Below the pieces are notes generated by a model. It made no database searches and had not been told where the DNA came from. It worked only from the letters and a program-made list of their open reading frames with translations. A stretch of DNA of 34,003 nucleotides, taken from Candidatus Shapirobacteria bacterium. Lineage in GTDB: Bacteria; Patescibacteriota; Microgenomatia; UBA12405. A program made the position numbers and the translations under genes. Below, in pieces: positions 6,798 to 34,003 of the stretch; position 1 is the first letter of the stretch, and each line of letters begins with the position of its first letter. Where the stretch lies: the NCBI GenBank assembly GCA_017991615.1, contig JAGOQF010000008.1:1-34003 (forward strand). Reading direction: 5' to 3'.

Positions 6798-8331
6798 GGA
6801 GTTTTTTGAGATATTTAATCGCGTAGGTAGATAAAAATTTAATATCGTCGAAATTTCTAATGGAAGTGACTTTTTTGAGTAAAAATTTTGGAGTCAAAAC
6901 ACCATAAAAAAGTTCTCTGATAATTTTTTTGATTTCTTCATCGGTAAAAGGAGATTTCATAACCGGTTGACGCATATCAAAATTATCCCAATTGTCGGTT
7001 AAAAGCCAATTATTGTCTAGGCATTGTTGAAAAAGAGGGGTACCGGGGTAAGGGATGATAATAGTGGCTTGTAAGCTGTCAGCCAAACCATCTTTGAAAA
7101 GTTGGCGGGCTTGATTGAGGGTTTTGAAGGCATCTGATTTGGTTTCCCAAGGATAACCAATCATGATGGTTAAATGAGGCTCTAAACCAGCTTTTTTAGC
7201 CATAATCAAAGTTTTTTTGGCATCGGCAACTTTGGTGTTTTTGTGGATTCGATCTAAAGTTTTTTGATTGGATGATTCAAGTCCATAAAGAACGAAGCGA
7301 AAACCGGCTTGTTTCATAAGGTGATATTGATCTTGATTGAGAGCGCCAAAACGCATATTGCATCCCAAAACAATTTTTTGGTTTAGTTTTTTGTCGATAA
7401 GTTGGTGGCAAAGTTCTGTTAACCAAGAACCAACGGGAAGAGTGCCACTGTCGTCAAAAATTTCTCTGACCCCTAAGGAAACCAGATTTTCAATTTCTTT
7501 GATGGTATGGTCAACAGAAAAAGTACGAAAAGTACCGGCAGGATGAGTGGTGGTCCAGGAGCAAAAAGTGCAACGTCCCCACCAACAATCACGACCGGAC
7601 ATAATGTAGGCGCCGGGTTTGTATTTAAAATTGGTGTTATTTTGACCATAAAGTTGCCATTTGGTTAGTTGACGGTCGATAATTGGGAGAGTGTCTAAAT
7701 GGTGATGTTTTAGATTGAACTTACCGGAATTTAGTACTTTAGTATTTTGGAGCTTTGGAACTTTGGAGCGGTAGTAGAAACCGGGTTCGAGTTTGGTGTG
7801 ATGAACTAAATGCTTGACTAAATTAATCATCATAAAATCATAATCACCACCGGTGATGACATAATCGACTTTAGAATTTGAAAATGACTCTTCAGGTAGG
7901 GCGGTAACATGGTCCCCCATCAAAGCAATAATGGAGCGAGGCAGAAATTTTTTAATATGATTGATAATTTGCCAATGTTTTTTGATGACTGGGGTTTTGG
8001 TTTCAATAAAAATGATTTTAGGTCTTCTTTTTAGAAGGCGGTGAAACCATTTTTGATAAGAAATTTTTTCAGCAATGGCATCATCCCAATAAACTTTAAA
8101 ACCCATTTGTTTGAGAGCGGTGGCGCCGTAGGCGGGGATGACCGGTAAAATAACGTTACCGGTATTAGTCCATTGGAATTGTCGATTTTGAGAAAGAAAA
8201 GGAATGCCTTTGTCGGAATCAAGCGGTGGAGAAGAAATAGAGATAGTAAAATTTTTGTTAGCCGCCGATGTAGTGACCGGTTTTAGGGTCGACTTGGTGG
8301 GCTTTGAAAGAGACGCCTTTTTTGGTGAGAC
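6784..8331 (-). CDS. B12-binding-type radical SAM protein
   Basis: N-terminal cobalamin-binding-like Rossmann domain followed by a radical SAM barrel; such enzymes often methylate or rearrange unreactive carbons in lipids, antibiotics or sugars. From the ATG at 8331 (515 aa), the first domain includes the Pro-Pro start of the B12 fold (~I-S-S-P-P, 32-36) and M-G-D-H-V-T-A-L-P-E-E (139-149), equivalent to the G-G-x-H-x-T-x-x-P-E-E of this class. The cluster motif is C-W-W-G-R-C-T-F-C (C249, C254, C257), CX4CX2C rather than CX3CX2C. G-Y-P-W-E-T is also typical. The start is uncertain: the frame stays open to 8418, and no standard start codon lies between 8331 and the second domain half, so it must overlap the upstream GT2 by at least 74 bp or use a rare codon. 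A five-copy octamer repeat encodes the interdomain linker. Substrate unknown. Confidence 0.8.
   Translation of the reverse strand, partial: VSPKKASLSKPTKSTLKPVTTSAANKNFTISISSPPLDSDKGIPFLSQNRQFQWTNTGNVILPVIPAYGATALKQMGFKVYWDDAIAEKISYQKWFHRLLKRRPKIIFIETKTPVIKKHWQIINHIKKFLPRSIIALMGDHVTALPEESFSNSKVDYVITGGDYDFMMINLVKHLVHHTKLEPGFYYRSKVPKLQNTKVLNSGKFNLKHHHLDTLPIIDRQLTKWQLYGQNNTNFKYKPGAYIMSGRDCWWGRCTFCSWTTTHPAGTFRTFSVDHTIKEIENLVSLGVREIFDDSGTLPVGSWLTELCHQLIDKKLNQKIVLGCNMRFGALNQDQYHLMKQAGFRFVLYGLESSNQKTLDRIHKNTKVADAKKTLIMAKKAGLEPHLTIMIGYPWETKSDAFKTLNQARQLFKDGLADSLQATIIIPYPGTPLFQQCLDNNWLLTDNWDNFDMRQPVMKSPFTDEEIKKIIRELFYGVLTPKFLLKKVTSIRNFDDIKFLSTYAIKYLKKLHDFS
7730..7769. repeat. Five-copy imperfect 8-bp tandem repeat inside the radical SAM gene
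   Basis: Five successive octamers fitting TTTRGNRC (one copy ends in T) fill 7730-7769: two A/T-rich copies, then three TTTGG-type copies. Forty bases is not a multiple of three, so gain or loss of one unit shifts the frame; three units would be neutral. It encodes the linker R-S-K-V-P-K-L-Q-N-T-K-V-L-N between the B12-like and radical SAM domains. Confidence 0.75.
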
Positions 8332-9241
8332 CATGTAGAAATAGTATACCGTAATAAAGGTGAGTGATAGGGATGGTAATGGTGGCCAACAAGACAGTTT
8401 GGAGGTGGTGTTTGTCAATAATAAATTTAATTGAGGTTATCAATAATATTGATAAATACAAATATAATGGCAAATAGAAAATTTGTTGATGAAGGGTAAA
8501 AAAAATAACAATCAAAAATAAACAATAAATAAAAAAAAGGCTGGGTAAAAAATAACCCAATTTAAGGCTGGTTTGAGGAAATTTTTTGACAAAATAACCT
8601 CTTTGAATAGCATAGCGGGTAATTTGTTGAAGATGAGGAATTAAGACCCGGCGGCGGTGGTGATAGACTCTTAGCGACGGATGATAATAAATTTTTTGAT
8701 GAAGTTTTTTGGTAAGGTTTAAACAAAGAACAGTGTCTTCGCCGGGCCAGTAATTGGTGTCAAATTTGCCGGCGCGATTAAAATCGGTTTTCTTGACAAT
8801 TAAGTTGACACTGGGATAATCATCGACAAACCTGGCAGAGCTGATTCGATTGCGATAGACACCGGCTCCGCCACTACCCAAATAAGATGACCAAACCAAA
8901 CCAGAGGCTTGTTGATATAAATCATCTTGTTTGGGAGTCAGACAGGGACCGCAGAAAGCGGCATAATTTGAGTATTTTTTGACTAATTTGGTGGCATTTT
9001 TAAAATAGTTGGCGGTGGGAAAGGAATCATCATCAAAAAAAACCAGATATTGGCCACGGGCTTTAGCGGCGCCCAAATTTCTTTTTTGAGAAGGGTTGGC
9101 GGTGCCGGAAAGGCGGTCATCAATAACCAAGATTTCAAAATTATGAAGCGATTGAGTTTTTAATTTTGATAGAGTTTCTTGCAAATAAGGATTTGTTTGA
9201 CGAACAGGAATAATGATGGAGAATAGAGGAGTTGAGGTCAT
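8258..9241 (-). CDS. GT2 family glycosyltransferase with C-terminal transmembrane region
   Basis: GT-A fold enzyme of 327 aa. F-S-I-I-I-P-V-R (7-14) leads to V-I-D-D (39-42); the usual S-T-D that follows in GT2 proteins is replaced by R-L-S-G-T-A. The metal site is an F-D-D-D triplet (69-72), and the base-like motif is W-P-G-E-D-T (165-170), followed by Y-H-H-R-R-R (193-198). Residues ~230-310 form two or three membrane segments. This layout resembles membrane GT2s that extend glycans on lipid carriers. Its ATG forms a 4-bp ATGA overlap with the stop of the DPM-like gene, tying the two together. Its own 3' end lies under the ambiguous start of the radical SAM gene. Confidence 0.83.
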   Translation of the reverse strand: MTSTPLFSIIIPVRQTNPYLQETLSKLKTQSLHNFEILVIDDRLSGTANPSQKRNLGAAKARGQYLVFFDDDSFPTANYFKNATKLVKKYSNYAAFCGPCLTPKQDDLYQQASGLVWSSYLGSGGAGVYRNRISSARFVDDYPSVNLIVKKTDFNRAGKFDTNYWPGEDTVLCLNLTKKLHQKIYYHPSLRVYHHRRRVLIPHLQQITRYAIQRGYFVKKFPQTSLKLGYFLPSLFFIYCLFLIVIFFTLHQQIFYLPLYLYLSILLITSIKFIIDKHHLQTVLLATITIPITHLYYGILFLHGLTKKGVSFKAHQVDPKTGHYIGG

Positions 9242-10041
9242 TGTCCGGTATTGATCCGCATAGAAAGTTCCGGATCATAAACCCATTTACGATTATTTTT
9301 ATCGTCATAATAATGTAGAATTCTGAGACGATAAAAAACGGCCAGAGCGTCAATTAGGGATTGATAAATAATTTTAAGGCCTTTGGCATGGGTCAGACTG
9401 TCAAAATCATAATTAAGTTTGATAGGAGCTTCATAAATTTTAGTAAAACCGAGATGATTGGCAACGGAAATAATTTCCAAATCAAAAGCATAACTTTTTA
9501 TAAGTAGACGGGGTAAAACTTTTTGAAGGACTTTACGTTTGAAAATTTTGAGACCGGCTTGAGTGTCGCGAATATTGATACCCAATAGGTATTTGGCAAT
9601 TAGATGACCGCCAAAACTGATTATTTTGCGATCGAGAGGATATTTGACTTGGGAGGCGGGATGATGTTTGGAGGCAGCAATAATATCGGCATCATACCAC
9701 TCCATATGTTCTAAAACCAAAGAAATACCATTGGGATCTATCTCCATACCAGCATCAATAAAGGCGATATAGTCGCCGACAGATCTGGCCATGCCATAGC
9801 GGACGGCATAACCTTTGCCGTGATTGTTCGGATAGCCGATGACGGTAATGTTTTTGGATTTAACTTTTTTGGCAAGACGGTAGGAATTGTCAACTTTGAT
9901 ACCGTCGACGACAACAATCAGTTCATAGTCGTAGCGAATTTGGTCAAGGACGTTGATAATATTGGCTAGATCTTTGACAATGGTTTTTTCTTGTTTATAG
10001 ACAGGAACGATAACAGAAAGGAAATGCTGGTTATTTTTCAT
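9238..10041 (-). CDS. DPM1/ALG5-like GT2: polyprenyl-phosphate sugar synthase
   Basis: Predicted to move one sugar from a nucleotide donor onto polyprenyl phosphate, making the donor used by GT-C enzymes. From the ATG at 10041 (267 aa; a TTG two codons earlier is less likely): V-I-V-P-V-Y-K (10-16), V-V-V-D-G (43-47), H-G-K-G-Y-A-V-R-Y-G-M (74-84), R-D-T-Q-A-G-L-K-I-F (158-167) and F-D-L-E-I (186-190), all characteristic of the DPM1/ALG5 branch. The metal motif reads D-A-G-M-E (96-100) where D-A-D is usual. There is no C-terminal membrane pair, so it is the compact DPM1 form rather than the GtrB form. It lies downstream of five GT-C genes in the same transcript, fitting a donor-supply role. 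The sugar (Man, Glc or other) is not decidable. Confidence 0.82.
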   Translation of the reverse strand: MKNNQHFLSVIVPVYKQEKTIVKDLANIINVLDQIRYDYELIVVVDGIKVDNSYRLAKKVKSKNITVIGYPNNHGKGYAVRYGMARSVGDYIAFIDAGMEIDPNGISLVLEHMEWYDADIIAASKHHPASQVKYPLDRKIISFGGHLIAKYLLGINIRDTQAGLKIFKRKVLQKVLPRLLIKSYAFDLEIISVANHLGFTKIYEAPIKLNYDFDSLTHAKGLKIIYQSLIDALAVFYRLRILHYYDDKNNRKWVYDPELSMRINTGQ

Positions 10042-11122
10042 GAGCAAGAAGGGATTGATAAACCGCCAGAGTTTGTTTGGCGGTATCAGACCATTTGAAC
10101 AATTTGGCTCGATTCAAACCCAACTGACGGTATTGATGACGAAGTTTGGGATTCAACCAATATTTTTTGAGCACCGAAGCAATGTCGGGAATGGATCGAG
10201 GATTGAAGGATAAACCAGCTTCACCAACAACTTCAGGTAGACTGGTGTCGCGACTAAAAGCAACCGGACAACCTGATTGCATGGCTTGGACCAAAGGCAA
10301 GCCAAAACCTTCGGCAAATGAAGGTTGACAATAAATGGTGGCCAGATTGTAGATGACGGGCAAATCCTCGTCGGGGACAAAACCGGTTAAAATTAGAGAT
10401 TTTGAGTAACGGCGTTTTTTGGCTTGAGTTTGAAGCCAACGGATGTCTTTGGTCCAAGGATGATTAGGAACATCTTTTTTGACAGCTGAAGAACCGACAA
10501 TAACCAGAGGGTATTTGAGGCGACGACAGGCTTTGACTAAGTTGGGAATATTTTTGTTCCAGTTGATATCACCGACAAAAAGGATAAATTTGTTAGGGAG
10601 AGAATATTTATTTTTAACAGTTTTAAGGGTTTTAGTGTGGGTAATGGGTTTGAAACTATTGTCGGCACCTTCGTAGATGGGAAAGATATTTTCTTGGGGA
10701 TATTTTACAATTTGAGAAATAATTTTTTTAGAGTAGTGAGAGACGGTAATAATACTATCAACTTGCTGGAGAGATCTTTTTTGAATTTGCCATTTTAATT
10801 TACCTCTTAGTCCGGGAGGAAACTGATTTTTGAATTGAATTGGAATCAGATCATGGACGGTAACCACTACCGGTTGGGAGGATCGAGGCAAGGTTAGTTT
10901 GAAAGGATCAAAATAGGGATAGTGAACTAAATCATATGATTTTTGTTTTAGTTTGGCAGGGTCAGTGACAAGATCGATTTTGAGATGACTGTAAGAGCGG
11001 TGTTTTTGAGTGTGTTGTTGAAGAGATTTGACCAGATTTGAAGTATAGTAACCAACACCTCTAACAGCGTTACCATCAACAGTGGGAGAAATATCAATAG
11101 CGATTTTGTATTTTTTTGCCAT
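10031..11122 (-). CDS. GT4 family glycosyltransferase
   Basis: GT-B fold retaining enzyme, 363 aa from the ATG at 11122, which overlaps the TAA of the upstream gene by one base (TAATG); an upstream TTG is disfavoured. Motifs: R-G-V-G-Y-Y-T (21-27), V-H-D-L-I-P (89-94), the domain-2 opening F-V-G-D-I-N-W-N-K-N (182-191) and S-F-A-E-G-F-G-L-P-L-V-Q-A-M (268-281). In the last, the first Glu of EX7E is present (E271) but the second is Gln (Q279), a change in the donor-ribose/phosphate pocket. This pattern is frequent in mannosyltransferase B-like GT4s. It lies between a WaaE-like GT2 and the DPM-like gene. Specificity unknown. Confidence 0.85.
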   Translation of the reverse strand: MAKKYKIAIDISPTVDGNAVRGVGYYTSNLVKSLQQHTQKHRSYSHLKIDLVTDPAKLKQKSYDLVHYPYFDPFKLTLPRSSQPVVVTVHDLIPIQFKNQFPPGLRGKLKWQIQKRSLQQVDSIITVSHYSKKIISQIVKYPQENIFPIYEGADNSFKPITHTKTLKTVKNKYSLPNKFILFVGDINWNKNIPNLVKACRRLKYPLVIVGSSAVKKDVPNHPWTKDIRWLQTQAKKRRYSKSLILTGFVPDEDLPVIYNLATIYCQPSFAEGFGLPLVQAMQSGCPVAFSRDTSLPEVVGEAGLSFNPRSIPDIASVLKKYWLNPKLRHQYRQLGLNRAKLFKWSDTAKQTLAVYQSLLAHEK

Positions 11123-11952
11123 TATTTTTTGTCCCAATCTTGGGATAAATTTATATCCCGATTGGTTTTGGTTAACTCATAATATTTGGTGTAGGCGATA
11201 GGAAAACGAAGGGCTGAATAAAAAGAAAAAACGAATCCTGGAAAACCGTCAACGTAACCGCGATGACGGAAATAAGTTTTGAGAAACCAGAAAAGCGGTT
11301 TGAATAAATAGTAGTTGATAAAGCTAGTAAACCTAAGAGGAACTTGTTTGGTTTTTAGTTCTTCTGCCAAAAGAGTGGTATAGCGGTTGGCACGAAGCAG
11401 ATAAAGAGAAAATGAGGTGTCGGCGTAGTGTTCCAGATCATTTTTAAGCCAGCCGACAGGGCCTTTGACGACAGCTTGTTCGTGAACATCTTGACATGGC
11501 AAATAAGCAGTACCGTTTTTGTAAAATCTGATGGTGGGATCGGGGTATTGACCGCCTTTGGTAAGGAAAGTACCCAGGAAATAGTTTTTTCGGGGAATCC
11601 AAAAACCATTTTCAGGAACAGTGGAAGGATCTTTTTGAAGATAAGATTTGATTTCGGCTTTTAATTTGTCGGTGACAACTTCATCAGCGTCTAATTGAAG
11701 AATCCAATCGCCTTTTGATTTGGAAATACCCATTTGTTTGTTAAGATGAAACATGGGTTTGTTGGTAGTGGAGATGACTTTGGCTTGTTTAAACTTTTTA
11801 ACCAATTCAGCGGTATTATCTTGCGATTGACCATCAACTACAATAATTTCGTCGGCAATATCGGCAATGGCGCTAAGACATCTGACAATATTTTTTGATT
11901 CGTTGTAGGTGGCTAGGGTGACTGAGAGAGTGGCAATTTTTTTTGAGGTCAT
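11122..11952 (-). CDS. WaaE/KdtX-like GT2 glycosyltransferase
   Basis: Member of the GT2 group that includes LPS-core WaaE transferases. It begins A-T-L-S-V-T-L-A-T-Y-N-E (7-18), then I-I-V-V-D-G-Q-S-Q-D-N-T (36-47) and the metal motif D-A-D-E (88-91). The typical tail is present: R-H-R-G-Y-V-D-G-F-P-G-F-V-F followed by an aromatic amphipathic helix ending K-Y-Y-E-L. At 276 aa the length is normal. Two relatives occur at 28125 and 29831. Its ATG overlaps the TGA of the last tandem GT-C gene (ATGA). Probable cytoplasmic-face peripheral membrane enzyme; sugar unknown. Confidence 0.85.
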   Translation of the reverse strand: MTSKKIATLSVTLATYNESKNIVRCLSAIADIADEIIVVDGQSQDNTAELVKKFKQAKVISTTNKPMFHLNKQMGISKSKGDWILQLDADEVVTDKLKAEIKSYLQKDPSTVPENGFWIPRKNYFLGTFLTKGGQYPDPTIRFYKNGTAYLPCQDVHEQAVVKGPVGWLKNDLEHYADTSFSLYLLRANRYTTLLAEELKTKQVPLRFTSFINYYLFKPLFWFLKTYFRHRGYVDGFPGFVFSFYSALRFPIAYTKYYELTKTNRDINLSQDWDKK

Positions 11953-13577
11953 ATTTTTTGATAAATTTTGAAGGCGGGCGACCCATTGGAAAAATAAATA
12001 ATTTTGTCCGGTTGGGTGGGGATATTTTCGTCGGCGGCGACAACCAGAGATCCGAGAGGAATATCATCCCAATTAATTTTACCAAAATGATAGTTGTCGT
12101 AACCTAAAACAGTGGAAAAACCAAAATTATCGGGCGGGGTCAGTTGAATTTGAGATTGAATTTTGGCGGGAGGATATTGGGAAAAAAACAAAAATAAAAT
12201 ATAGGGTTGATCATATTTGTTGGTGACATAGATGTTTTGATATTGAGATTTTTGAGATTCCAGATAAGGAACCAATTGATCAAATTGATATTGCCAAGCA
12301 AAAGGATAACGTTTGGCGTAATGAAAGAAATAGGCATCAAGATAATAGACAAAGGAAAACAGATAGATAAAGATAAGGAAAACAGATACCAGCTTAGAAA
12401 TAAAATATTGGCGGCGCAATTTAAATAAATTAAAAAGGCTGTAAATACCAAGAGAAATAAGCATAGAAATAGGAATAACCAAGGGTAGTGATCTAAGAGC
12501 CGACGGCGCCTGAAAGGTCAACGATGAGGCAATGGGGGCGATTAGTAAAAAGGAAATAATAAAAGACTTGGTTTTGGAAGAATAAATTTTGGTTTTGAAA
12601 AGAAAGATCAGACCCAAAATTAACAAAGGTACTTCTATGAGATAGATTTGACCCATTTCCGGAACCTTGGAACGAGGAACTTCATCACCGTTGATGGCGA
12701 GAAAATTTAAGTCAAAATGAGAGGTATATTTTTGGGCCCAAGAAATGAGATAAAGCAAGCGTTTGTTGTGAATAAGGCGATTGGTCAGTTTGACACCTTG
12801 GTGTTGGTTTAGAAGTTCGTTTGAACGCCAAATGGGTCCTTGGTCGGCAGTCAAACCAACTCCACCAAATCTGGCAGTACCGCCATTGTGAAGAAAAGAA
12901 AATAAGACTGGTAGAGCTAAAATAGCGCCAAAAAAGACAGGAATAAGAATTTGAGGCAGTTTTTTGATTAAAAATTTAAAGTAAATAATGACCAGGGATA
13001 GCGCCAAAAGAGGGGCGACCAATCGGACGGAATGATAAAAATAAAGAGACAGGACGTAGAAAAAAACAAATAAAAAGAAATTGGGTAAGAATTTGGATGA
13101 CTTAATTGACTTGAAAAAATAGTAACTGCCGATAACGATAAAACTAAGAGCAGTTTGACTTTCCCAAGCGCCGCGACTGAAATGAATGTGCCAAGGAGAG
13201 ATGGCTAGCACGATAGAACTATAGAGCGATAGAGTTTCAGATTTGGAGAGAATCAAAACCAGTTTGTATAAAAACAAAATGGTCAGCAGAGAAAGGATGA
13301 GATTGGGGAGTCGAACAGACAAAGGATTGAGACCTAAAAGTTTGATAAAAGGGATGGTCAGATAAACATAGCCGCCGGGTTTGTAGTCGCCAAAGGACTT
13401 AAAATGGAGTGGCCAAGAGATACCGTGTTCGTCTTTGCCGGTTTGAATGAGGGAATAGGCATTGTAACCGAGAGCGGCTTCGTCGGGATTGAGAGCTGGG
13501 GTGTGAGCCAAATCAATAAATCTGACCAAAAAAGCCAGGATTAAAATAAGATAGAGAGAATATTTAGGGATTTTCAT
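11949..13577 (-). CDS. GT-C membrane glycosyltransferase, tandem paralog 1 (ArnT/PMT-like)
   Basis: Polytopic GT-C protein, 542 aa from the ATG at 13577 (another ATG lies two codons earlier). One span (~7-22) is followed by the first outer loop with P-D-E-A-A-L-G-Y-N-A-Y-S (31-42), whose D32-E33 correspond to the catalytic acidic pair of ArnT-like enzymes. Then come T-G-K-D-E-H-G (46-52), S-F-G-D-Y-K-P (61-67) and V-R-L-P-N (88-92), all shared with the four neighbours upstream. About ten further spans precede a ~100-residue outer C-terminal domain ending Y-Q-K-I. It probably uses polyprenyl-P-sugar outside the membrane. Two octamer-type micro-repeats lie within it (12661-12680 and 13211-13234). 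It overlaps paralog 2 by 14 bp. Confidence 0.8.
   Translation of the reverse strand: MKIPKYSLYLILILAFLVRFIDLAHTPALNPDEAALGYNAYSLIQTGKDEHGISWPLHFKSFGDYKPGGYVYLTIPFIKLLGLNPLSVRLPNLILSLLTILFLYKLVLILSKSETLSLYSSIVLAISPWHIHFSRGAWESQTALSFIVIGSYYFFKSIKSSKFLPNFFLFVFFYVLSLYFYHSVRLVAPLLALSLVIIYFKFLIKKLPQILIPVFFGAILALPVLFSFLHNGGTARFGGVGLTADQGPIWRSNELLNQHQGVKLTNRLIHNKRLLYLISWAQKYTSHFDLNFLAINGDEVPRSKVPEMGQIYLIEVPLLILGLIFLFKTKIYSSKTKSFIISFLLIAPIASSLTFQAPSALRSLPLVIPISMLISLGIYSLFNLFKLRRQYFISKLVSVFLIFIYLFSFVYYLDAYFFHYAKRYPFAWQYQFDQLVPYLESQKSQYQNIYVTNKYDQPYILFLFFSQYPPAKIQSQIQLTPPDNFGFSTVLGYDNYHFGKINWDDIPLGSLVVAADENIPTQPDKIIYFSNGSPAFKIYQKI
12661..12680. repeat. Short GGAAC repeat (spacing 8 then 7 bp)
   Basis: GGAAC occurs at 12661, 12669 and 12676. 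On the coding strand it yields V-P-R-S-K-V-P; the octamer repeat in the radical SAM gene also encodes R-S-K-V-P. It may be a degraded relative of that repeat, though the paralogs carry ordinary sequence with a similar N-P-R-H-S-x-P at this alignment position. Confidence 0.3.
13211..13234. repeat. Three-copy 8-bp tandem repeat (CKATAGAR)
   Basis: Three octamers, each fitting CKATAGAR, run from 13211 to 13234 within GT-C paralog 1, encoding L-S-L-Y-S-S-I at a loop before a membrane span. Like the repeat at 7730 it has an 8-bp period and contains GAAC-NNNN-GAGC spacing. The paralogs lack it at the matching place. Confidence 0.6.
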
Positions 13578-15198
13578 AGGCATAAAAAGTAGAGATTTGA
13601 CCAATGGGACTTAGGGGGATAAATTGACTAAATTCAGATTTTTGATCGATCCCCTGCCGATAAATTTCTTCTTGAGAAAAGATACCCATGGTGCCGGGAT
13701 TAGATTTGATAAATTCAAAACTGGGGGTGGAAAATTTGATGTTATCAATAGACTCAACTTTGCCGGTATCTAGAAAAGCTTCAGTCAGATGAGCTTTTTG
13801 TTGGTAATTTGTCGGTGAATAATGAGAATAAAAAAGGTAGAAAATATAGGGTTGACCATAAAAATCACTAAAGATAATTTGGTTATATTTTGACTGAGAA
13901 TTAATAACATAAGAAATGGCTTGTTTGTAACCATAAAGAAAATCATATGGTGATTTTTGGACCATATGGTTAAGATAAAGATCGCTGTAGTAAATGAAGG
14001 AAATAAGATAAACAAAAATTGTAAAAGTTAAGATCAGTTTTGAGGGGTATTTTTTTAGAAAGGCAAAAATCCCTAAGGAAATAAAATAAACCAAGGGGAT
14101 GGAAAGCGACATAGCTCGGACTGACTGGACTGAATCGCGAGTAAGAGCGGAAGGAATAGGAGCGACCAACAACCAAAGAAGAAAAAATAAATTTATGGGA
14201 GCGATTTGGGAGCGACTAAAACCAAAAACTAAACCGATAATGAGGAAAATTAAACTAGGATATAAAATAACACCGATGTAAGGAGCAGAGTGGCGCGGGT
14301 TTTGCCAATCACCTTCGAAGGCCAAGAATCGAGGTGAGAAATGGTTAAAATATCGGGAAAGAAAATTTCTAATAAAAAATGATGGCTGACTGTGAAAGAG
14401 TTGATAATCGAAGCGGTTGGTTTCGTTGATGATAGTTTCGGTTTCAGCTGGAGACCGAGGGTAGGAAAAGAGACTGACAACTTGAAGACGATTGGCGTTA
14501 CTATTGAAAAATAAGCCGTAAGCTACCGGTAGAGTCATAATACCTAAAGGGATAATAAAACTGAATAAAAGTTTTTTGAATTGAAGAGATTTGAAATTTA
14601 AAATAAACAAAATAATGATTAGAAATAAACTAATCATTTTGCCGGCTTGGTAAGTAAAAAGAGATAAACCAAAAATAATGGCGGAGAAAAGGAGATATTT
14701 TGATTGTTGGTGGTTTGTATATTTGTAAAAGAAATATGAGGCTAAAATAAGTTCAAAGGTGAGAATATTGGTTTCCCAAGCTCCCCGACTAAAATGGATA
14801 TTGTAGGGATTGAAGGCACAAACCAAGGCGGCGATATAGGCAATTTTTTTTGATTTAGGAGAAATTTCTATGATTAAAAGAAAAAGTAGAATTGGCGATA
14901 GAGCGCCTAGGATAATTGAGGGAAGTCTGACGGAAATTTCATTGAGACCGAATATGGTTACAAAAGGAACAGCCAGATAAACATAGAGTCCGGGTTTATA
15001 GTCGCCAAAGGATTTGAAAATAAGTGGCATAAATTGACCATATTCATCTCTGAGGGTTTGAGAAATAGAATAAGCGTTGTAGCCGAGAGCGGCTTCATCC
15101 CAGAGGAGAGGGGTTTTTTGCCAAAAGACAAATCGGATTAAAAAACTAACAATAAAGATTGAAAATAAAAATAATTTGGATGAAGTTGATTTAGTCAT
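13564..15198 (-). CDS. GT-C membrane glycosyltransferase, tandem paralog 2
   Basis: 544-aa polytopic protein of the same subfamily as its neighbours. The first loop carries L-W-D-E-A-A-L-G-Y-N-A-Y-S (32-44; D34, E35), then L-R-D-E-Y-G (49-54) and S-F-G-D-Y-K-P-G (63-70). A mid-protein loop reads A-P-I-P-S-A-L-T-R-D-S-V-Q-S-V-R, the P-x-x-S-A-[LI]-T-x-x-x-x-x-x-x-R signature of this group. The C-terminal outer region has Y-G-Y-K-Q and F-Y-G-Q-P-Y-I-F-Y-L-F-Y. The closest relative by eye is paralog 1. Its ATG overlaps the TGA of paralog 3 by 4 bp (ATGA). Donor probably polyprenyl-P-linked; acceptor unknown. Confidence 0.8.
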   Translation of the reverse strand: MTKSTSSKLFLFSIFIVSFLIRFVFWQKTPLLWDEAALGYNAYSISQTLRDEYGQFMPLIFKSFGDYKPGLYVYLAVPFVTIFGLNEISVRLPSIILGALSPILLFLLIIEISPKSKKIAYIAALVCAFNPYNIHFSRGAWETNILTFELILASYFFYKYTNHQQSKYLLFSAIIFGLSLFTYQAGKMISLFLIIILFILNFKSLQFKKLLFSFIIPLGIMTLPVAYGLFFNSNANRLQVVSLFSYPRSPAETETIINETNRFDYQLFHSQPSFFIRNFLSRYFNHFSPRFLAFEGDWQNPRHSAPYIGVILYPSLIFLIIGLVFGFSRSQIAPINLFFLLWLLVAPIPSALTRDSVQSVRAMSLSIPLVYFISLGIFAFLKKYPSKLILTFTIFVYLISFIYYSDLYLNHMVQKSPYDFLYGYKQAISYVINSQSKYNQIIFSDFYGQPYIFYLFYSHYSPTNYQQKAHLTEAFLDTGKVESIDNIKFSTPSFEFIKSNPGTMGIFSQEEIYRQGIDQKSEFSQFIPLSPIGQISTFYAYENP

Positions 15199-16784
15199 GG
15201 TTTATTTTTAAGAATTTCAAAAACCGGAGAACCGTCTGGATAGTAAACAGTGGTCAAGAGTTGAGTGTTATGTTGATTATAATTGTGGGGAGAAGTAATT
15301 AAAAGAATTTTTTGATTTGAAGGTAAAGATTGGATGACAGTTAAAATATCCCAATCGTTGATAAATCGAAATTTATCAAACTTATCGACCCAATACCAGT
15401 TGGCGTGGTAATCCCAAACTTTGGTAGGATCGGTGTGGTATTGATGTGGCGACCAGGGCCAATAAAAAAGGAAAAATTCATGGGGTTCACCATATTTTTT
15501 GGTAATTAAAATTTGATCATAATCGGAATAGACCGATTTGACATAGTTGACGACTTGTTGATAGCCATACTGCCATGAGGAGGCATAAGTTTGACTGTAG
15601 GTAATGTATTTGGGCCAGAATTGGATTTGACTGATAATTAGGACAACAATTAGATAGACGGCAGACAGTTTAGGTTGAAAACGATTGAGGTAAGTAAAGC
15701 CAATGGCAGTGATAATAATGACAATGGGGATAAAAATAATACTTCTAAGGACGTGGGGAGCATCGCGGGTGATGGCTGAAGGCAAAGGGGCAACTAACAA
15801 CCAAAAAAAGAGTAATTGGTATTGAGGATTTTTTTTGAAATGTTTTAGGAGATAAACTAAACCTAGGATTAAAAATGGAATCAATAGAGGTGAGAGAAGG
15901 TAAAAATGAGGAATATTAAATTGATAATGAGAACCACCGTGAAAGAAAAGATAAAGAGGATTAAAGTGACTAAGATAATTTTTGCCGGTTTGATAGATAA
16001 AAAAAGTAAGTTTGTTGACTAAAATTCGGGGGTAGGTTTGTCGAAGTTCGTTGATGCGGTTGACAGAACCGCTGTCTAGTAAAGATACCCATTGATAACG
16101 AGCCTGACCGGACTGGTTTAACATTTGCCAAGCGGTCAAGATGATAAAAATTAAAAATGGTAAAAAATGAAGTAAATTTTTTTTGAGGGGATATTTATTT
16201 TTGACCAGAAAATAAATCAAGGAAATAATAAAAAAAGGTAAAAGAGCTCGACTGCTATTGTAAGTAAAAAGGCTTAAACCATAAATGAAGCTGCTAAAAG
16301 AATATTTTTTGGTAATTAAAAAATAAAGGCTGAGACAAAAAAGAAAAGCAAACAGATTGGCTTCCAAGGCAATCCGAGATAAAAATAAAGTGCCGGGAGA
16401 GAACAAACAAATAAGGGCGGCAAACAAGGGTATTTTGGTATCTTTGGGTAAGATTTTGCCAACAATTAGATAAATTAAAACCGGAAGAAGAGAGCCGGCA
16501 ACAATGGAAACCAATCTGACGGAAAATGGAGTTAGTCCAAAAATAAGAACTGAAGGAATGGTTAAATAAATATAAAGAGGCAGTTTGTAATCACCATAGG
16601 CTCTGAAAATCAGAGGCAAAAAACTCCCCCACTCATCTCGACCGGTTTTAAGGAGAGAATAAGCGTTGTAACCATGAGAAACTTCGTCCCAATTGAGACT
16701 GGGAGGAAACTTATCGATATAAATTGATCTGAGAATAAAACCAAAAATAAAGATAAGAATTAATACTAATTTACGGGGCTTCAT
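15195..16784 (-). CDS. GT-C membrane glycosyltransferase, tandem paralog 3
   Basis: 529-aa polytopic GT-C protein. Residues 32-43 read W-D-E-V-S-H-G-Y-N-A-Y-S (catalytic-type D33, E34), with T-G-R-D-E-W-G (47-53) and A-Y-G-D-Y-K-L-P (62-69) following. The mid-protein signature is A-P-L-P-S-A-I-T-R-D-A-P-H-V-L-R. The C-terminal soluble part contains Y-G-Y-Q-Q-V-V-N-Y-V and K-Y-G-E-P-H-E-F-F-L-F-Y. The acidic and aromatic motifs match paralogs 1 and 2, while many other positions differ, suggesting different donor or acceptor sugars. It is coupled to paralog 2 by an ATGA overlap and to paralog 4 by a 14-bp overlap. Confidence 0.8.
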   Translation of the reverse strand: MKPRKLVLILIFIFGFILRSIYIDKFPPSLNWDEVSHGYNAYSLLKTGRDEWGSFLPLIFRAYGDYKLPLYIYLTIPSVLIFGLTPFSVRLVSIVAGSLLPVLIYLIVGKILPKDTKIPLFAALICLFSPGTLFLSRIALEANLFAFLFCLSLYFLITKKYSFSSFIYGLSLFTYNSSRALLPFFIISLIYFLVKNKYPLKKNLLHFLPFLIFIILTAWQMLNQSGQARYQWVSLLDSGSVNRINELRQTYPRILVNKLTFFIYQTGKNYLSHFNPLYLFFHGGSHYQFNIPHFYLLSPLLIPFLILGLVYLLKHFKKNPQYQLLFFWLLVAPLPSAITRDAPHVLRSIIFIPIVIIITAIGFTYLNRFQPKLSAVYLIVVLIISQIQFWPKYITYSQTYASSWQYGYQQVVNYVKSVYSDYDQILITKKYGEPHEFFLFYWPWSPHQYHTDPTKVWDYHANWYWVDKFDKFRFINDWDILTVIQSLPSNQKILLITSPHNYNQHNTQLLTTVYYPDGSPVFEILKNKP

Positions 16785-18435
16785 ATTTGGTGTGGTAAAT
16801 ATAAATAGCCGGTTCTTGCTTGGAGTGATTGGGGTAATAAATTATATGATCCGGTTTGATATTTCTAAATTCTTCTGGGCGACCAACGATAATAGTATTG
16901 GGAATTTGACTGTCACTGGGAATATTGATTTCTTTAAAAATAAATTTGCCTAGTTTATATTCACCCAATTGATCTAAAAACATAAGATTTTTAATTTCGT
17001 AATCAAGCCAATTGGTAGATTCTGATTGGGTAATCTTGGGATTGATTTGATTAAAAAAGGTAACATAGGCTTGAGGTTCGGAAAGTTTTCGAGAATAGAT
17101 GATTTTGTCTGCGGAGTGTTGGCGGAGGTAATCGTTGGCTTGTTGATGACCATAAAGCATACCGTGAGCCAAGATTTGATTGGATTGATAAAAATATCTG
17201 GTTAAGAAAGTACCGGTAGTCAGTCCAAAAATTGCAGTTAGGATTAAAAGGGCACTTTTTGAGAATTTTGATGGAATTTTGGTAAAAAATAAACCCAAGC
17301 CGGCGGCTGAAAAAATTTGAATAAAAGGCATCATCAGAGAAACTCTGTTGGCAGAATATTGACCTTTGGCAACAGCGCCGATGGTTGGGGGAATGAGAAA
17401 AATAACCAGCAACAGCAGAAGGGGTTTAAATGAGACGGATTTTGGGGAGGATTTGAGAAGATAAATGATACTCAACACCATACCGAGGGTAGGGATAATA
17501 CCTAAAACTCCATAACCGGGAATCATGCCATAGGTGGTCTCGCCGGCGCCATTGGTGACCAAAAATTGAGGCGAAAGATAGGAAAAATAATTGTGAACAA
17601 AAGTTTCGAATAAATAAGTGATTTTGTTGTAAAAAATTCTGGAGAGATGCGGTTGAAGACCGTTTTGGCGAATTTCATATTGACTATTGGAGACAGATTG
17701 CCATTTGTCGGTGGGGTTAAAAATAGCAATATCGCCAGTTCGAGCTGATTTGATTTGACTATTGAGGTAAAAATTAAACAAAAAGAAACTACCAAAAACG
17801 ATTATGAGACCAATAAAATATTTTTGTTGTTTATAAATAGTAAAATAGATTGTTAATATCAGGATTAATAAAGGAGTGAATATTTTGGCGGAGTGATAGG
17901 TAAATAAACTTAAACCAAATAAAGCAACAGAAGTTAAAAATAGAAAAAATTGTTTGTCTTTGACGGATTTGATAAATAAAAAAACAGCCAAGCTGATAAT
18001 AAAAACAACCAAATTGGCTTCTAGGGCAATGCGGGACATAGGTAAGCTCCAAGGAGAAACACTCATAAACAGGCTACTGAGAAGTGAAATAAGAGTGTTG
18101 TCAAATAATTGTTGGGCAATAAGATAGGTGATTAAAACAGTGGCAATACCAAAAATGGCATTGGGGAGTCGGACGGCAAACGGAGTCAGACCGAAAATTT
18201 TGATGCTGGGAATCATCAGCAAGGTTTGAAGTGGGGGTTTGTAGTCACCAAAAGATCGGAGATTTAGCCAATTTTGACTCCCCCATTCGTCTCGACCGGT
18301 TTGAATAATTGAATAGGCAGTATAGCCTTGAGCCAATTCATCGGGAGTATAAGAATTGGGAAGAGAACCTAACTTATATAATCTTAAAAAGGCGGCTAAG
18401 ATTAGAATTATGGCTAAAAAAAACTTGTTTTTCAT
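16771..18435 (-). CDS. GT-C membrane glycosyltransferase, tandem paralog 4
   Basis: 554-aa polytopic protein. Motif series: T-P-D-E-L-A-Q-G-Y-T-A-Y-S (30-42; D32, E33), T-G-R-D-E-W-G (46-52) and S-F-G-D-Y-K-P-P-L (61-69). The mid loop is altered to P-P-T-I-G-A-V-A-K-G-Q-Y-S-A-N-R, lacking the S-A-[LI]-T-R-D of paralogs 2 and 3, so it is more divergent there. The C-terminal domain has Y-G-H-Q-Q-A-N-D-Y-L. Overlap with paralog 5 is 4 bp (ATGA). Same inferred role as its neighbours, probably with changed specificity. Confidence 0.8.
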   Translation of the reverse strand: MKNKFFLAIILILAAFLRLYKLGSLPNSYTPDELAQGYTAYSIIQTGRDEWGSQNWLNLRSFGDYKPPLQTLLMIPSIKIFGLTPFAVRLPNAIFGIATVLITYLIAQQLFDNTLISLLSSLFMSVSPWSLPMSRIALEANLVVFIISLAVFLFIKSVKDKQFFLFLTSVALFGLSLFTYHSAKIFTPLLILILTIYFTIYKQQKYFIGLIIVFGSFFLFNFYLNSQIKSARTGDIAIFNPTDKWQSVSNSQYEIRQNGLQPHLSRIFYNKITYLFETFVHNYFSYLSPQFLVTNGAGETTYGMIPGYGVLGIIPTLGMVLSIIYLLKSSPKSVSFKPLLLLLVIFLIPPTIGAVAKGQYSANRVSLMMPFIQIFSAAGLGLFFTKIPSKFSKSALLILTAIFGLTTGTFLTRYFYQSNQILAHGMLYGHQQANDYLRQHSADKIIYSRKLSEPQAYVTFFNQINPKITQSESTNWLDYEIKNLMFLDQLGEYKLGKFIFKEINIPSDSQIPNTIIVGRPEEFRNIKPDHIIYYPNHSKQEPAIYIYHTKYEAP

Positions 18436-20084
18436 ATTTTTTGGATGATTTGAGCCAAAATGGTATGGTTGGGGTTGTAAACGGTTTTGACGGTGGTAAA
18501 GCCGGAAACCGGTTGTTGAGAAAGATCCATATCACCGGGAATATCTTTGCCTTGAAATAGAACAAAAACATTCTGGCTTTGAGCGTTGGTTTTAATGTCA
18601 TTAAGATGATCTGGGGATGACCAGTCGTTGATAAAAGTAATTTGATGATTTAAGTTAAATTGAGGACCGTTATCAACCACTTGGTCATTTATAAATTTTT
18701 GAGGTGGATATTTTTGATAAAAAAGATAAGGCAGAAGTGAATTGTATTTAGCATTGCTGATGTAAAGATGATTAAAGTCTTTGGGAATATTTTCAAATAT
18801 TTGCTGATAGCCATAATTCCAATTTTCAAATGAATCTTTGGGATAATGAACAAAATATTCGTGAGCAAAAGCAGCAATTTGGAAGATTAAAATAGCAGTT
18901 AAAGGTAAATAAAGAACAGGAGATATTTTTGATTGAAATAATTTAACAATACCTAAGGCAATAAAATAAGCTAAAGGAATTACCATTAAAAATAGTCTGG
19001 TGGCATGAGTGCCGCCATTGGTGGTTAAACTTGAGGGCAAAGGGGAAAGAAGCAGCCAAAACAACATTAAATTGTTTAAAGAGTTTTTGAAATCGAGACC
19101 AAAGAATCCAAAAATTAAAAACGGCAAAAAAACAATAAAAATTTGACCAAAACCAGGAATAGAGTGGCGAACATTAAGGGTATCTCCGGTTAAAAATAAA
19201 AAATCAAGAGAAAAAGATTTGATGTAATTTCTTGAAATTTCGGCTAAATATTTTTGAGGTTTATTATGAAAAACAGATTCAAGTTGAGGATTGGCGGCAG
19301 AAAAAGTGGTTCGTTTGATAACAATTTGATCAATTATTTGAGGGTTGTTAATAACACTGAGAGAAGAAAACCTAGTGGCGGCTTGACCATAAAGAATTTC
19401 TTTGATAAGGGGTAAAATAAACAACAAAGTCAAACCTGAAGCGGTTAGAAATAATGTTGGTTTAAGTTTGGTTTTAATGGTTTTGAAGTTGGTAAAAATC
19501 AAAAAAATAACCAAGAGAGGGACAAATATATTAGCGGTATTGTAGGTATAAAAACTGAGGCCGAAAAATATAATTGAAAGATATAAAAATTTATTTTTGA
19601 GATAGCGGACAAATAAATAAAAAAAGTAGGTGCCAGCTAAAATCAAACTAATTAACAAGGTAACTTCGAAAGCGGCGCGGCTATAGTGAAAATGCCAAGG
19701 CATCAGGCTTAAAACGGTGGCAGAAATCAAGGATAGCGGTTGAGATTTGGAAAGAAGCAAAACCAGTTTGTAAATCAAATAGATACTAAGAACACCAAAC
19801 AGGACCGGAGCTAGACGAACTCCAACTTGATTGAGACCAAAAAGGCTAACAAAAGGAACGACGGTATAGATTAGAAACGGAGCTCTGGATTCGGCCAAAG
19901 ATTGGATATAAAACGGTAAAAAATTACCTTTGTAATCACAACCGGTTTGAGATAAAGAATAAGCTTGGTAACCGACATCAATTTCATCACCAAATAAACT
20001 GAGATTGTCCAGTCGCCAAACTCTAACTAAAAAAGATAAAATTATAAGAATAATTATTCCCCAAGAAGCTGGTTTAAGTGTCAC
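18432..20084 (-). CDS. GT-C membrane glycosyltransferase, tandem paralog 5 (divergent motifs)
   Basis: 550-aa polytopic protein, first of the tandem series to be translated. It starts at GTG (20084); no ATG is available before the first membrane span (~8-22). F-G-D-E-I-D-V-G-Y-Q-A-Y-S (31-43; D33, E34) is conserved, but the next motif is T-G-C-D-Y-K-G (47-53) instead of T-G-R-D-E-W-G, and F-G-D-Y-K-P has become L-A-E-S-R-A-P (63-69). The mid loop S-P-L-P-S-S-L-T-T-N-G-G-T-H-A-T-R keeps the signature. The catalytic pair is therefore retained while the flanking pocket changes, suggesting a different sugar or acceptor. It overlaps the Gpi18-like gene by 11 bp. Confidence 0.8.
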   Translation of the reverse strand: MTLKPASWGIIILIILSFLVRVWRLDNLSLFGDEIDVGYQAYSLSQTGCDYKGNFLPFYIQSLAESRAPFLIYTVVPFVSLFGLNQVGVRLAPVLFGVLSIYLIYKLVLLLSKSQPLSLISATVLSLMPWHFHYSRAAFEVTLLISLILAGTYFFYLFVRYLKNKFLYLSIIFFGLSFYTYNTANIFVPLLVIFLIFTNFKTIKTKLKPTLFLTASGLTLLFILPLIKEILYGQAATRFSSLSVINNPQIIDQIVIKRTTFSAANPQLESVFHNKPQKYLAEISRNYIKSFSLDFLFLTGDTLNVRHSIPGFGQIFIVFLPFLIFGFFGLDFKNSLNNLMLFWLLLSPLPSSLTTNGGTHATRLFLMVIPLAYFIALGIVKLFQSKISPVLYLPLTAILIFQIAAFAHEYFVHYPKDSFENWNYGYQQIFENIPKDFNHLYISNAKYNSLLPYLFYQKYPPQKFINDQVVDNGPQFNLNHQITFINDWSSPDHLNDIKTNAQSQNVFVLFQGKDIPGDMDLSQQPVSGFTTVKTVYNPNHTILAQIIQKI

Positions 20085-21360
20085 TTTTTAGATATTTAAC
20101 AAAATAATCCAGACAGATTATTAATAGTATAAACGATAACAGTCGACAAGTAAGGAAGTTGAAGCCAATAAGGAAGGATTTGAGCGGGGAAATTAGTGGA
20201 TAAAACCAAAGATTGTAAAGATTTAAGAAATGAATAAGCGACAAAACCAAAAGATGTTTAAAATTGAAATTTGATTTGGGGAGAAAGATAAGCATAATTA
20301 GCAGTGGAAAAACCGGATAAAGATAACGTTCGTGCATATTGGTTAGAAAGATAAAACTACCAAAGGCGGATAACATTAGAGCATAAGAAAGATTGGTTAG
20401 AGTTAGCTTGGATTTAATAAATTTAAGCCAAATTGGAAGTAAAAATAACAAATAAAGCAGTCGACCCCACCATTGGTAGGTAAGACCGGCAAATTTAGTA
20501 AATTCTGATAAGGATAAATTTATACCAAACAGACCAGCCCAGAGATTAAAGGCGTTACCATTGAGCATACTCCCCTGCCGGACTAAAACTCGGTTGGTAT
20601 ACATATACCAGAGCCATTGGAAGGGATTTTTATCACCAAAAGTGAAAGGGATGGCTAAAAGAAAAATAGCAAGAGTAAAAATAAGCGTTGGGGCGATGAA
20701 TTTTTTCCAATCAGAAATTCTTTTGAGAAATAAAAGCCCAAAAATAGGCAAGTAAATAATCAAGGATAATTTAAATAAGAATCCGGAAAGGAAAAGAAAA
20801 ACTCCAGAAAAATATTTTTTTTGATAAACAAGATAAATACCGGCAAGAGCCAAAAGATTTATAAGAGAATCAGTTTGGCCCCAAATAGCGGAATTGTAGA
20901 TCAAGACAGGATTAAATAAAAACAAAATAGTGGCAAGAAGAGCTTTTTGGGGTCGATATTTTTGGATGATTTTGTAAATCAAATAACCAAGACCAATATC
21001 AGCGAGAATAAAAGGCAGTTTGACTAACCAAGGGTGAAGGTTGGTTTCTAAAATGGGAACAATAAAAGATGGAAAAATAGGAATAGTGTGGTTGAGGAAA
21101 AGAATAAAATTGAAAAGGAATTTATGAATAACGGCGATGAGAGCAAACAAAAGAATAGATCCAAAAGGTTGATTGGGCCAAGAAACTCCCCAAATACTGT
21201 GTTCATAAAAATCACGGGAACCATAAATTAGAAAACGATTACCCCAGTCGGTATGATTGGGAAGGTCGGGGTGCCAACCGGAGATGAGAACCAAAATCAA
21301 TCTTAAGCCAAAAGCCAGCCAAAGAATGGTTTTTAGATTGATTTTTGAAGTTTTTGCCAT
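20074..21360 (-). CDS. Gpi18/ALG6-like GT-C mannosyl/glucosyltransferase
   Basis: 428-aa polytopic protein of the Gpi18/PIG-M/ALG6-related GT-C group (distinct from the five paralogs beside it). The first outer loop has H-P-D-L-P-N-H-T-D-W (30-39). The hallmark N-S-A-I-W-G-Q-T-D-S (156-165) follows a run of membrane spans, and N-M-H-E-R-Y-L-Y-P lies near residue 325. Both motifs are characteristic of bacterial Gpi18-like mannosyltransferases. The start is the ATG at 21360; an in-frame TTG five codons upstream is less likely. It overlaps the preceding GT2 by 28 bp. Expected donor: polyprenyl-P-hexose. Confidence 0.8.
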   Translation of the reverse strand: MAKTSKINLKTILWLAFGLRLILVLISGWHPDLPNHTDWGNRFLIYGSRDFYEHSIWGVSWPNQPFGSILLFALIAVIHKFLFNFILFLNHTIPIFPSFIVPILETNLHPWLVKLPFILADIGLGYLIYKIIQKYRPQKALLATILFLFNPVLIYNSAIWGQTDSLINLLALAGIYLVYQKKYFSGVFLFLSGFLFKLSLIIYLPIFGLLFLKRISDWKKFIAPTLIFTLAIFLLAIPFTFGDKNPFQWLWYMYTNRVLVRQGSMLNGNAFNLWAGLFGINLSLSEFTKFAGLTYQWWGRLLYLLFLLPIWLKFIKSKLTLTNLSYALMLSAFGSFIFLTNMHERYLYPVFPLLIMLIFLPKSNFNFKHLLVLSLIHFLNLYNLWFYPLISPLKSFLIGFNFLTCRLLSFILLIICLDYFVKYLKSDT

Positions 21361-22133
21361 TTTTGTCCTGACCAAATTATAAAATTTATAAGGTAATGTT
21401 TAAAGCAACCATGAAATTTAATACTGCTGGGGATAAGACGACGCCATTGATGTTGAGAATCGGCAAGATTTTGACCACTAAAACCATGACGATGAATAAC
21501 TCGACAGTTGGGATAATAATAAACCTGTTTGCTGGCGCGCCGGACAGCGCGACAAAGATCCAAATCCTCATAATAAAAGAAATATTTTTGATTCCAGCCG
21601 CCGATTTGATTGAAAAGAGATTTGGAAATTAGCAGAGCGCCACCGGAGATATATTTAACCGGTAAAGGAGAAGTAGATGATGGTAGATATTTGGAATAAG
21701 TGTTTTGACCCAACCAAAATTCTTTGAAAGCATTGACGATGGTTTGGGGTGGAAAAACTGAAGCCTGAGGAGTAAGATCGGGATTTAAAAATTTGGGGCC
21801 GATGCAACCAATGTGGAGATTTGATTGAAGATAGTCAACCATATCAATAAGACTTGAATCGACAAGTTCCATATCGGAATTTAAAAATAGAAAATAATTG
21901 CCTTTGGCCACTTTGGCGCCTTGATTGTTGGCAACAGCAAAGCCTAAATTTTGTTTATTTTTGATAAGGCGAACACCGGTTTTTCCGAGAGATTTGACAG
22001 TGTCATCAATGGAACCATTGTCGATAACAATAATTTCGTAGGAATAGTTTTTAAGATGTTTTTTGATAGTTTTGACACACTTGAGGGTGACTTTGGCAGT
22101 ATTCCAGGTGGGGATGATGATAGAAAGATTCAT
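21333..22133 (-). CDS. Rhamnosyltransferase-like GT2 (WbbL type)
   Basis: 266-aa GT-A enzyme of the branch containing WbbL-type rhamnosyltransferases. Motifs: S-I-I-I-P-T-W-N (4-11), V-I-D-N-G-S-I-D-D (36-44), N-L-G-F-A-V-A-N-N (62-70), N-S-D-M-E (85-89) as the metal site, a G-G-A-L-L element near 156 and Y-Y-E-D-L-D-L-C (~177-184), which holds the likely catalytic base. It has no strong membrane segments. Its ATG overlaps the TGA of the YfhO-like gene by 4 bp. The true sugar may not be rhamnose, since this branch is broad. Confidence 0.83.
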   Translation of the reverse strand: MNLSIIIPTWNTAKVTLKCVKTIKKHLKNYSYEIIVIDNGSIDDTVKSLGKTGVRLIKNKQNLGFAVANNQGAKVAKGNYFLFLNSDMELVDSSLIDMVDYLQSNLHIGCIGPKFLNPDLTPQASVFPPQTIVNAFKEFWLGQNTYSKYLPSSTSPLPVKYISGGALLISKSLFNQIGGWNQKYFFYYEDLDLCRAVRRASKQVYYYPNCRVIHRHGFSGQNLADSQHQWRRLIPSSIKFHGCFKHYLINFIIWSGQKWQKLQKSI

Positions 22134-24466: not shown

Positions 24467-24492
24467 CTTCTTAACTATTTGATCTTAGTGAT

Positions 24493-26043: not shown

Positions 26044-26044
26044 A

Positions 26045-33779: not shown

Positions 33780-34003
33780 ATCAGTTGTTGATAAAACCAT
33801 TTAATTTCGTCTTTGGAAACCAGAAAGTGAAAAATAAGATAGACTGAAACAGAAATAACGACTTTACCAATTAGATTGACCCAACCGTAAAAACCAAAAT
33901 TCTGGAAAATAAGGCTAAAAATAAGCATTAAAATAGTGGCTAAAAGTGGTTTGGAAATAGCTGACAAAACCCGGACACCAAATATTTTTTGGGCAAAATA
34001 CCA
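33758..34003 (-). CDS. C-terminal part of a Wzx-like (MOP family) glycan flippase, partial
   Basis: The minus frame is open from the window edge to the stop at 33758, giving the last 81 residues of a longer protein. It reads F-G-V-R-V-L-S-A-I-S-K-P-L-L-A-T-I-L-M, then two membrane segments separated by a short loop, ending in a basic tail. The S-K-P-L-L-A element before a final span pair is typical of the C-terminal region of oligosaccharide flippases of the Wzx/RfbX type, which move undecaprenyl-PP-linked glycans across the membrane. It sits directly upstream of the fusion gene (22-bp overlap), as expected at the head of a glycan cluster. Most of the protein is outside the window, so this rests on a short piece. 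Confidence 0.6.
   Translation of the reverse strand, partial: WYFAQKIFGVRVLSAISKPLLATILMLIFSLIFQNFGFYGWVNLIGKVVISVSVYLIFHFLVSKDEIKWFYQQLICLRQKK

Follow-up and report, generated by a model that had tools for sequence, protein, structure and literature searches.

A fixed-order array of five GT-C-type paralogs with class-specific loop residues in a glycan locus of Microgenomates bacteria

Introduction

In mycobacteria, EmbA/B/C, AftA-B and PimE are GT-C enzymes of related fold, and each extends an envelope glycan by a defined linkage. ALG3, ALG9 and ALG12 are GT-C enzymes that act stepwise with one polyprenyl-phosphate sugar donor. O-antigen and capsule loci rely mainly on cytosolic glycosyltransferases (GTs) and a polymerase.

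Here, a stretch of 34,003 nucleotides (the window) from a Candidatus Shapirobacteria bacterium was analyzed, which carries an array of five predicted GT-C enzymes. These resemble ArnT and the bacterial PMT-type GT-C enzymes (PF02366/PF13231) in their predicted GT-C fold, the D-E pair in the first outer loop and a length of ~540 aa, and a polyprenyl-phosphate donor is probable for them as well. Unlike the ArnT/PMT-type enzymes, they form an ordered set of several classes rather than a single gene, and the similarity to ArnT (GT83) is not full-length but limited to a partial match with an E-value of only 0.06 (profile positions 67–226). The mycobacterial arabinan and PIM enzymes, as well as ALG12 and ALG9, are among the fold matches of the array models. 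However, the Embs are about twice as large, and EmbA/B/C, AftA-B and PimE come from several families and do not constitute one collinear paralog array, whereas ALG3, ALG9 and ALG12 are eukaryotic, have dispersed genes and gave no sequence match in the search. Like O-antigen and capsule loci, the locus is a series of GT genes in which the core is conserved, the end is exchangeable and single genes are replaced between lineages, but its core consists of GT-C enzymes of one subfamily in an invariant order.

A protein census of CPR bacteria listed 35 families enriched in Microgenomates, mostly hypothetical, with 14 membrane proteins (PMC6744442). For the subfamily described here no characterized member was found, and no description of the array was found in the literature, the coverage of which was partial and is not proof of absence. 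New here is the invariant class order 5-4-3-2-1 across loci. Microgenomates genomes are small, yet the one analyzed here devotes ~1.2% of its DNA to the five genes, and such an ordered array is found in much of the class. The array has kept one order while its end can be exchanged, which suggests that these mostly uncultured bacteria carry a conserved surface glycan, of which no description was found. The array provides concrete genes and residues with which the building and variation of this surface can be tested, and this bears on host attachment and phage recognition.

Results

Array layout and genomic setting

Five minus-strand ORFs of predicted GT-C fold are located head to tail at 11949–20084, in the order g5-g4-g3-g2-g1 along transcription (Table 1). 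An earlier reading based on the sequence alone had described five head-to-tail proteins of ~530–555 aa joined by 4- or 14-bp overlaps, and ORFs, lengths, strand and overlaps were confirmed. The overlaps are 4 bp for g5/g4 and g3/g2 and 14 bp for g4/g3 and g2/g1, the last of these if g1 starts at the ATG at 13577 and not at the alternative TTG at 13604. A glycan-locus context was also borne out: the array is surrounded by GT2 and GT4 glycan-building genes and sits within a locus of roughly 20 genes. The host genome comprises 677 kb and is 95% complete; ~1.2% of its DNA encodes the five GT-C paralogs. When this genome was searched with the family profile, the five array genes were followed by two far weaker, short local matches (E 3e-8 and 4e-5).

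Table 1. Positions of the array genes and their neighbors in the window.
Feature	Position	Strand	EL1 sequence and motifs	Basis or remark
g1, class 1 GT-C, 542 aa	11949..13577	-	LNPDEAALGYNAYSL..TGKDEHG..GDYKP	AlphaFold, PDB fold matches
g2, class 2 GT-C, 544 aa	13564..15198	-	LLWDEAALGYNAYSI..TLRDEYG..GDYKP	Pfam, tree
g3, class 3 form a GT-C, 529 aa	15195..16784	-	LNWDEVSHGYNAYS..TGRDEWG..GDYKL	Pfam, tree
g4, class 4 GT-C, 554 aa	16771..18435	-	YTPDELAQGYTAYS..TGRDEWG..GDYKP	Pfam, tree
g5, class 5 GT-C, 550 aa, GTG start	18432..20084	-	LFGDEIDVGYQAYSL..TGCDYKG..AESRAP	Pfam, tree, AlphaFold
GT2 glycosyltransferase, constant 3' neighbor of class 1	11122..11952	-		PF00535; synteny
GT4 glycosyltransferase, constant 3' neighbor	10031..11137	-		PF00534/PF13439; synteny
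GT2, candidate polyprenyl-phosphate-sugar donor synthase	9238..10047	-		Dol-P-Man-synthase-like; synteny
GT2 glycosyltransferase, syntenic in many relatives	8258..9241	-		Pfam; synteny
433-aa polytopic protein, 5' of class 5	20074..21375	-		conserved with class-5/4/3a cassette
GT2 glycosyltransferase, 5' of cassette	21333..22133	-		Pfam; synteny

The nearest solved relative of the candidate donor synthase is the Dol-P-Man synthase of Pyrococcus (5mlz), followed by sll0501 and ArnC. The 433-aa polytopic protein gave a weak match to Mannosyl_trans4 of 15.8 bits, which is under the cut-off of 33 bits.

Between 3634 and 24466, ~17 mostly glycan-related minus-strand genes could be identified, nearly all of which overlap or lie a few bases apart, and overlaps of 4 bp and 13–17 bp keep recurring. 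This gene run suggests one very long translationally coupled operon. The promoter and terminator scan gave hits at chance level only, and the tRNA and Rfam scans gave no matches. The G+C content is 27–28% over a YfhO-like gene (22130–24466) and the adjoining PMT_2 gene (24493–26055), compared with 31–39% in most of the window, and this low-G+C stretch (22000–25000) was possibly acquired later. At 30783–33800, a protein of 1005 aa is encoded with a predicted soluble N-terminal part and a hydrophobic C-terminal part, which had no Pfam match even at E 1.

Family, fold and catalytic residues

As had been proposed, the five proteins belong to one paralogous subfamily: all five are clearly homologous, with pairwise BLASTP E-values of 1e-29 to 1e-84 and identities of 24–36%. 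The AlphaFold models of g1 and g5 had pLDDT values of 94.3 and 92.6, respectively. Using Foldseek, both models matched STT3/PglB, ArnT, ALG12 and Pmt4 in the PDB with a probability of 1.00, at query-normalized global TM-scores to full-length solved GT-C matches of only ~0.4–0.5. Sequence matches to solved structures were weak (best E 0.04).

GT-C enzymes are known to require an acidic pair just after the first transmembrane segment (PMC6801728). In ALG6, ArnT, PglB and PimE, the Asp in this position acts as the catalytic base (PMC12041525). In the family profile, D32-E33 of g1 aligned with the Asp-Glu of Pmt4 from yeast and Chaetomium. The conservation of D32, E33, D49, R236 and R362 was 1.00 in the rows counted, and the D-E pair, which had been reported as retained, is 100% conserved across the five classes. 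A positive charge conserved in one of the late outer loops has also been described for GT-C enzymes (PMC6801728), and R362, which is 100% conserved in the five classes, is a candidate for this residue. Based on the predicted fold and the acidic motif in the first outer loop, the five proteins are assigned to the GT-C superfamily.

Pfam scores for PMT and PMT_2 (PF02366 and PF13231) were weak to moderate over the five proteins. Both curated cut-offs were exceeded by g2 (48.8 bits for PF13231 and 42 bits for PF02366), g4 and g5; g3 exceeded that of PF02366 and was 0.1 bit short of that of PF13231, and g1 stayed under the PF02366 cut-off (19.5 vs. 22.7). For the protein O-mannosyltransferase equivalog NF058602, which has a cut-off of 800 bits, g4 reached 32.4 bits. 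The WWD (WWDxG) motif of oligosaccharyltransferases was present in 0/107 family rows, and the Agl23 cut-off of 126 bits (TIGR03663) was not reached by g2, g5 and g4 (40, 37 and 27 bits). Assignment to ArnT, PMT, OST or Agl23 was rejected, since the respective cut-offs were not reached or the motifs were absent.

Orthology and age of the five classes

Local duplication in this lineage had been suggested as the origin of the array, with a tree including homologs as the check. In a tree of 107 rows of family members, each window copy was found in its own starred clade, giving five separate placements that are all forced by starred branches, and each copy grouped with distant orthologs, which is the outcome that the sequence-only reading had named as contradicting local duplication. 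Besides orthologs from other genera of the family, the clades contain some from other families within the order; certain classes reach beyond the order. Identity to orthologs in other genomes was 35–83%, mostly at least 44%, compared with the 24–36% between neighbors. With the five copies dispersed over as many starred clades, recent local duplication was rejected. The duplications took place before several Microgenomates orders radiated.

Fixed gene order and distribution

Loci were selected by similarity from a GTDB-based collection, and each gene was assigned to its class from a 428-row tree, not from its position. The class clades had FastTree supports of 1.0, 0.99, 0.97, 0.98 and 1.0. The class order was 5-4-3-2-1 in the direction of transcription in each of the 51 loci in which three or more genes were classed; this sampling is biased to window-like arrays and, given shared descent, the 51 loci are not independent events. 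In the 56 loci with at least two classed genes, 350/350 classed pairs were in order, with no reversal and no duplicate. Represented among these ordered loci are Woese-, Shapiro-, Collier-, Ames-, Blackburn- and Daviesbacteria as well as other Microgenomates. The five genes represent an old array of distinct enzyme classes, the order of which was kept across much of Microgenomates.

A sample of 137 genomes from the class containing Microgenomates yielded g1 relatives in 117. In a sample of the phylum, strong full-length matches came from this class, and the outside matches listed cover mainly residues 1–250. Within the samples searched, the full-length subfamily is confined to the class containing Microgenomates. 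A recent acquisition from outside the phylum found no support in these searches.

Class-specific residues in the first extracytoplasmic loop

The motifs of the sequence-only reading were found as given, except that g3 reads GDYKL and not GDYKP. The second and third motifs had been assigned to separate loops; in the g1 model, both are located in the first extracytoplasmic loop (EL1, residues ~21–68). Across orthologs, and with few exceptions, this loop reads DEAAxGYNAYSL..DEHG in class 1, WDEAALGYNAYSI..DEYG in class 2, WDEVSHGYNAYS..DEWG in class 3a, WDEISHGYNAYS..DQWG in class 3b, PDELAQGYTAYS..DEWG in class 4 and GDEIDVGYQAYS..DYKG in class 5. Since each motif is fixed across the orthologs of its gene, the proposed drift of the motifs was rejected; they are long-held class signatures.

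Class-specific columns were defined as conserved within classes and different between them. Of the 32 such columns, 11 are located in EL1 (residues 21–68), to which only 47 of all 497 columns belong (Fisher p = 5e-5), and several of them adjoin the invariant D32-E33 and D49 in sequence. The systematic variation beside the catalytic pair that had been noticed is supported, with class-specific sites concentrated in the active-site loop. EL1 was also rich in invariant residues (7/23) and is best described as an active-site loop with both shared and class-specific residues. The copies may differ in donor or acceptor specificity.

Constant core and exchanged 5' end

Classes 2-1, followed by GT2, GT4 and the Dol-P-Man-synthase-like GT2, were present in most relatives with contigs reaching that far, and GT2 was located directly 3' of class 1 in nearly all loci of relatives with a long enough contig. 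The 5' part occurred in two forms. One consists of classes 5-4-3a with the 433-aa membrane protein and a GT2, the other, found in most other loci, of a membrane protein followed by class 3b. Both are present inside the genus of the window, the first in G000 and G002 (with G001 on split contigs) and the second in G003, G005 and G007; the locus of G011 is a hybrid of the two. The constant core thus comprises genes 2-1 and the downstream GT2-GT4-Dol-P-Man-synthase-like genes, and the 5' part is exchanged.

A conserved membrane protein of ~555 aa was observed upstream of class 3b in seven loci (L144, L145, L146, L150, L151, L156 and L158). It was identified as PF10131 (PTPS_related) in the two proteins tested and may be a further GT-C-like enzyme.

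Gene g5 was 83% identical to its copy in another genus of the family (G013) vs. 54–57% to the copies of its own genus, whereas g1–g4 of G000 and G013 were 51–62% identical. DNA identity between G000 and G013 was ~82% from ~18450 to ~20000 and mostly 50–70% on either side, and identity at fourfold sites was 58% for g5 vs. 28–45% for g1–g4. From these identities, g5 is best read as a recent single-gene transfer between lineages, in either direction.

A B12-binding radical-SAM gene at 6784–~8290 was 82% identical to the G013 copy vs. ~59–62% to copies of its own genus (G001, G007), and the DNA identity falls abruptly at the gene start. This pattern, which is like that of g5, suggests a second single-gene exchange in the locus. 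With the TTG at 8418 as its start, the radical-SAM ORF would share 160 bp with the upstream GT2, and this start is probably too early.

Discussion

It is considered likely that the array represents an ancient set, fixed in order, of five long-diverged GT-C classes of one subfamily, which depend on polyprenyl-phosphate sugars and extend an exported surface glycan, each by its own residue or linkage. Each enzyme would be membrane-embedded, would carry its D-E pair on the first outer loop and would take the sugar from a polyprenyl-phosphate donor, one of which is probably made by the adjacent Dol-P-Man-synthase-like GT2. The neighboring GT2 and GT4 enzymes would assemble the glycan, to which each class would add a different residue or linkage, and the finished glycan would be displayed on the cell surface. 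The acceptor could be a protein, a lipid or a polysaccharide. Catalytic activity, donor, acceptor, the difference in linkage between classes and the order of reactions are in this model deduced from fold, conserved residues and gene context. The array would have arisen by tandem duplication before several Microgenomates orders split, its order being fixed since. Classes 2-1 and the downstream GTs would form the constant core, while the exchangeable 5' classes would change the outer decoration.

Two other origins were considered. That the genes are tandem, coupled and homologous would fit a recent lineage-specific tandem expansion followed by a change of specificity, as the sequence-only reading had it. 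This origin is very improbable, as the copies are spread over five starred clades and are closer to their orthologs than to their neighbors, and a matching ordered array is present in Woese-, Ames-, Blackburn-, Collier- and Daviesbacteria. Equally far-fetched is an origin in which unrelated GT-C genes were acquired one by one from distant bacteria. Single-gene replacement between genera does occur at the locus (g5 and the radical-SAM gene), but the exchange is between close relatives and at the 5' side; moreover, all five proteins belong to one subfamily with full-length members seen only in this class, and the class order was conserved without exception in the 51 loci.

With regard to function, the array might instead act in protein glycosylation, with PMT-like O-glycosyltransferases or oligosaccharyltransferases that modify secreted proteins and not a growing glycan. 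The Pfam PMT/PMT_2 matches and the presence of STT3/PglB and Pmt4 among the best fold matches would agree with this. However, the scores are far under the NCBIfam protein O-mannosyltransferase cut-off, the WWD motif is missing from all 107 family members, and the genes lie among many cytosolic GT2/GT4 glycan-building genes, and such a function is regarded as unlikely. It is less likely still that the array encodes a hetero-oligomeric complex in which some of the copies serve as non-catalytic partners, comparable to PIG-U in GPI transamidase, or as Agl23-like translocators of lipid-linked sugars. The fixed order with one copy per class fits subunits, and weak Agl23 matches were obtained for three of the proteins, but these do not reach the cut-off, and full conservation of the D-E pair in five classes is unexpected for non-catalytic subunits. 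The stepwise decoration of a surface glycan by five distinct enzymes is preferred.

For such an enzyme set, gene order might mirror the order of enzyme action, or of complex assembly, on a surface glycan common to the class, with classes 2 and 1 making an invariant inner part and classes 3–5 an outer part that can be exchanged. This is put forward tentatively and is rather doubtful; if it were true, swapping the 5' cassette, or only one gene, for example g5, would alter the surface. The order could also have been conserved through coupled expression or through selection acting on the operon, and not because of the reaction order.

A second branch, comprising Gottesman-, Chisholm-, Beckwith- and Curtissbacteria, carries arrays of other classes, most with a fixed tail of their own. 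In Gottesmanbacteria and relatives (L103, L116–L120 and L122), a second ordered GT-C array was observed, with the order d-g-e-a-b and the constant tail a-b.
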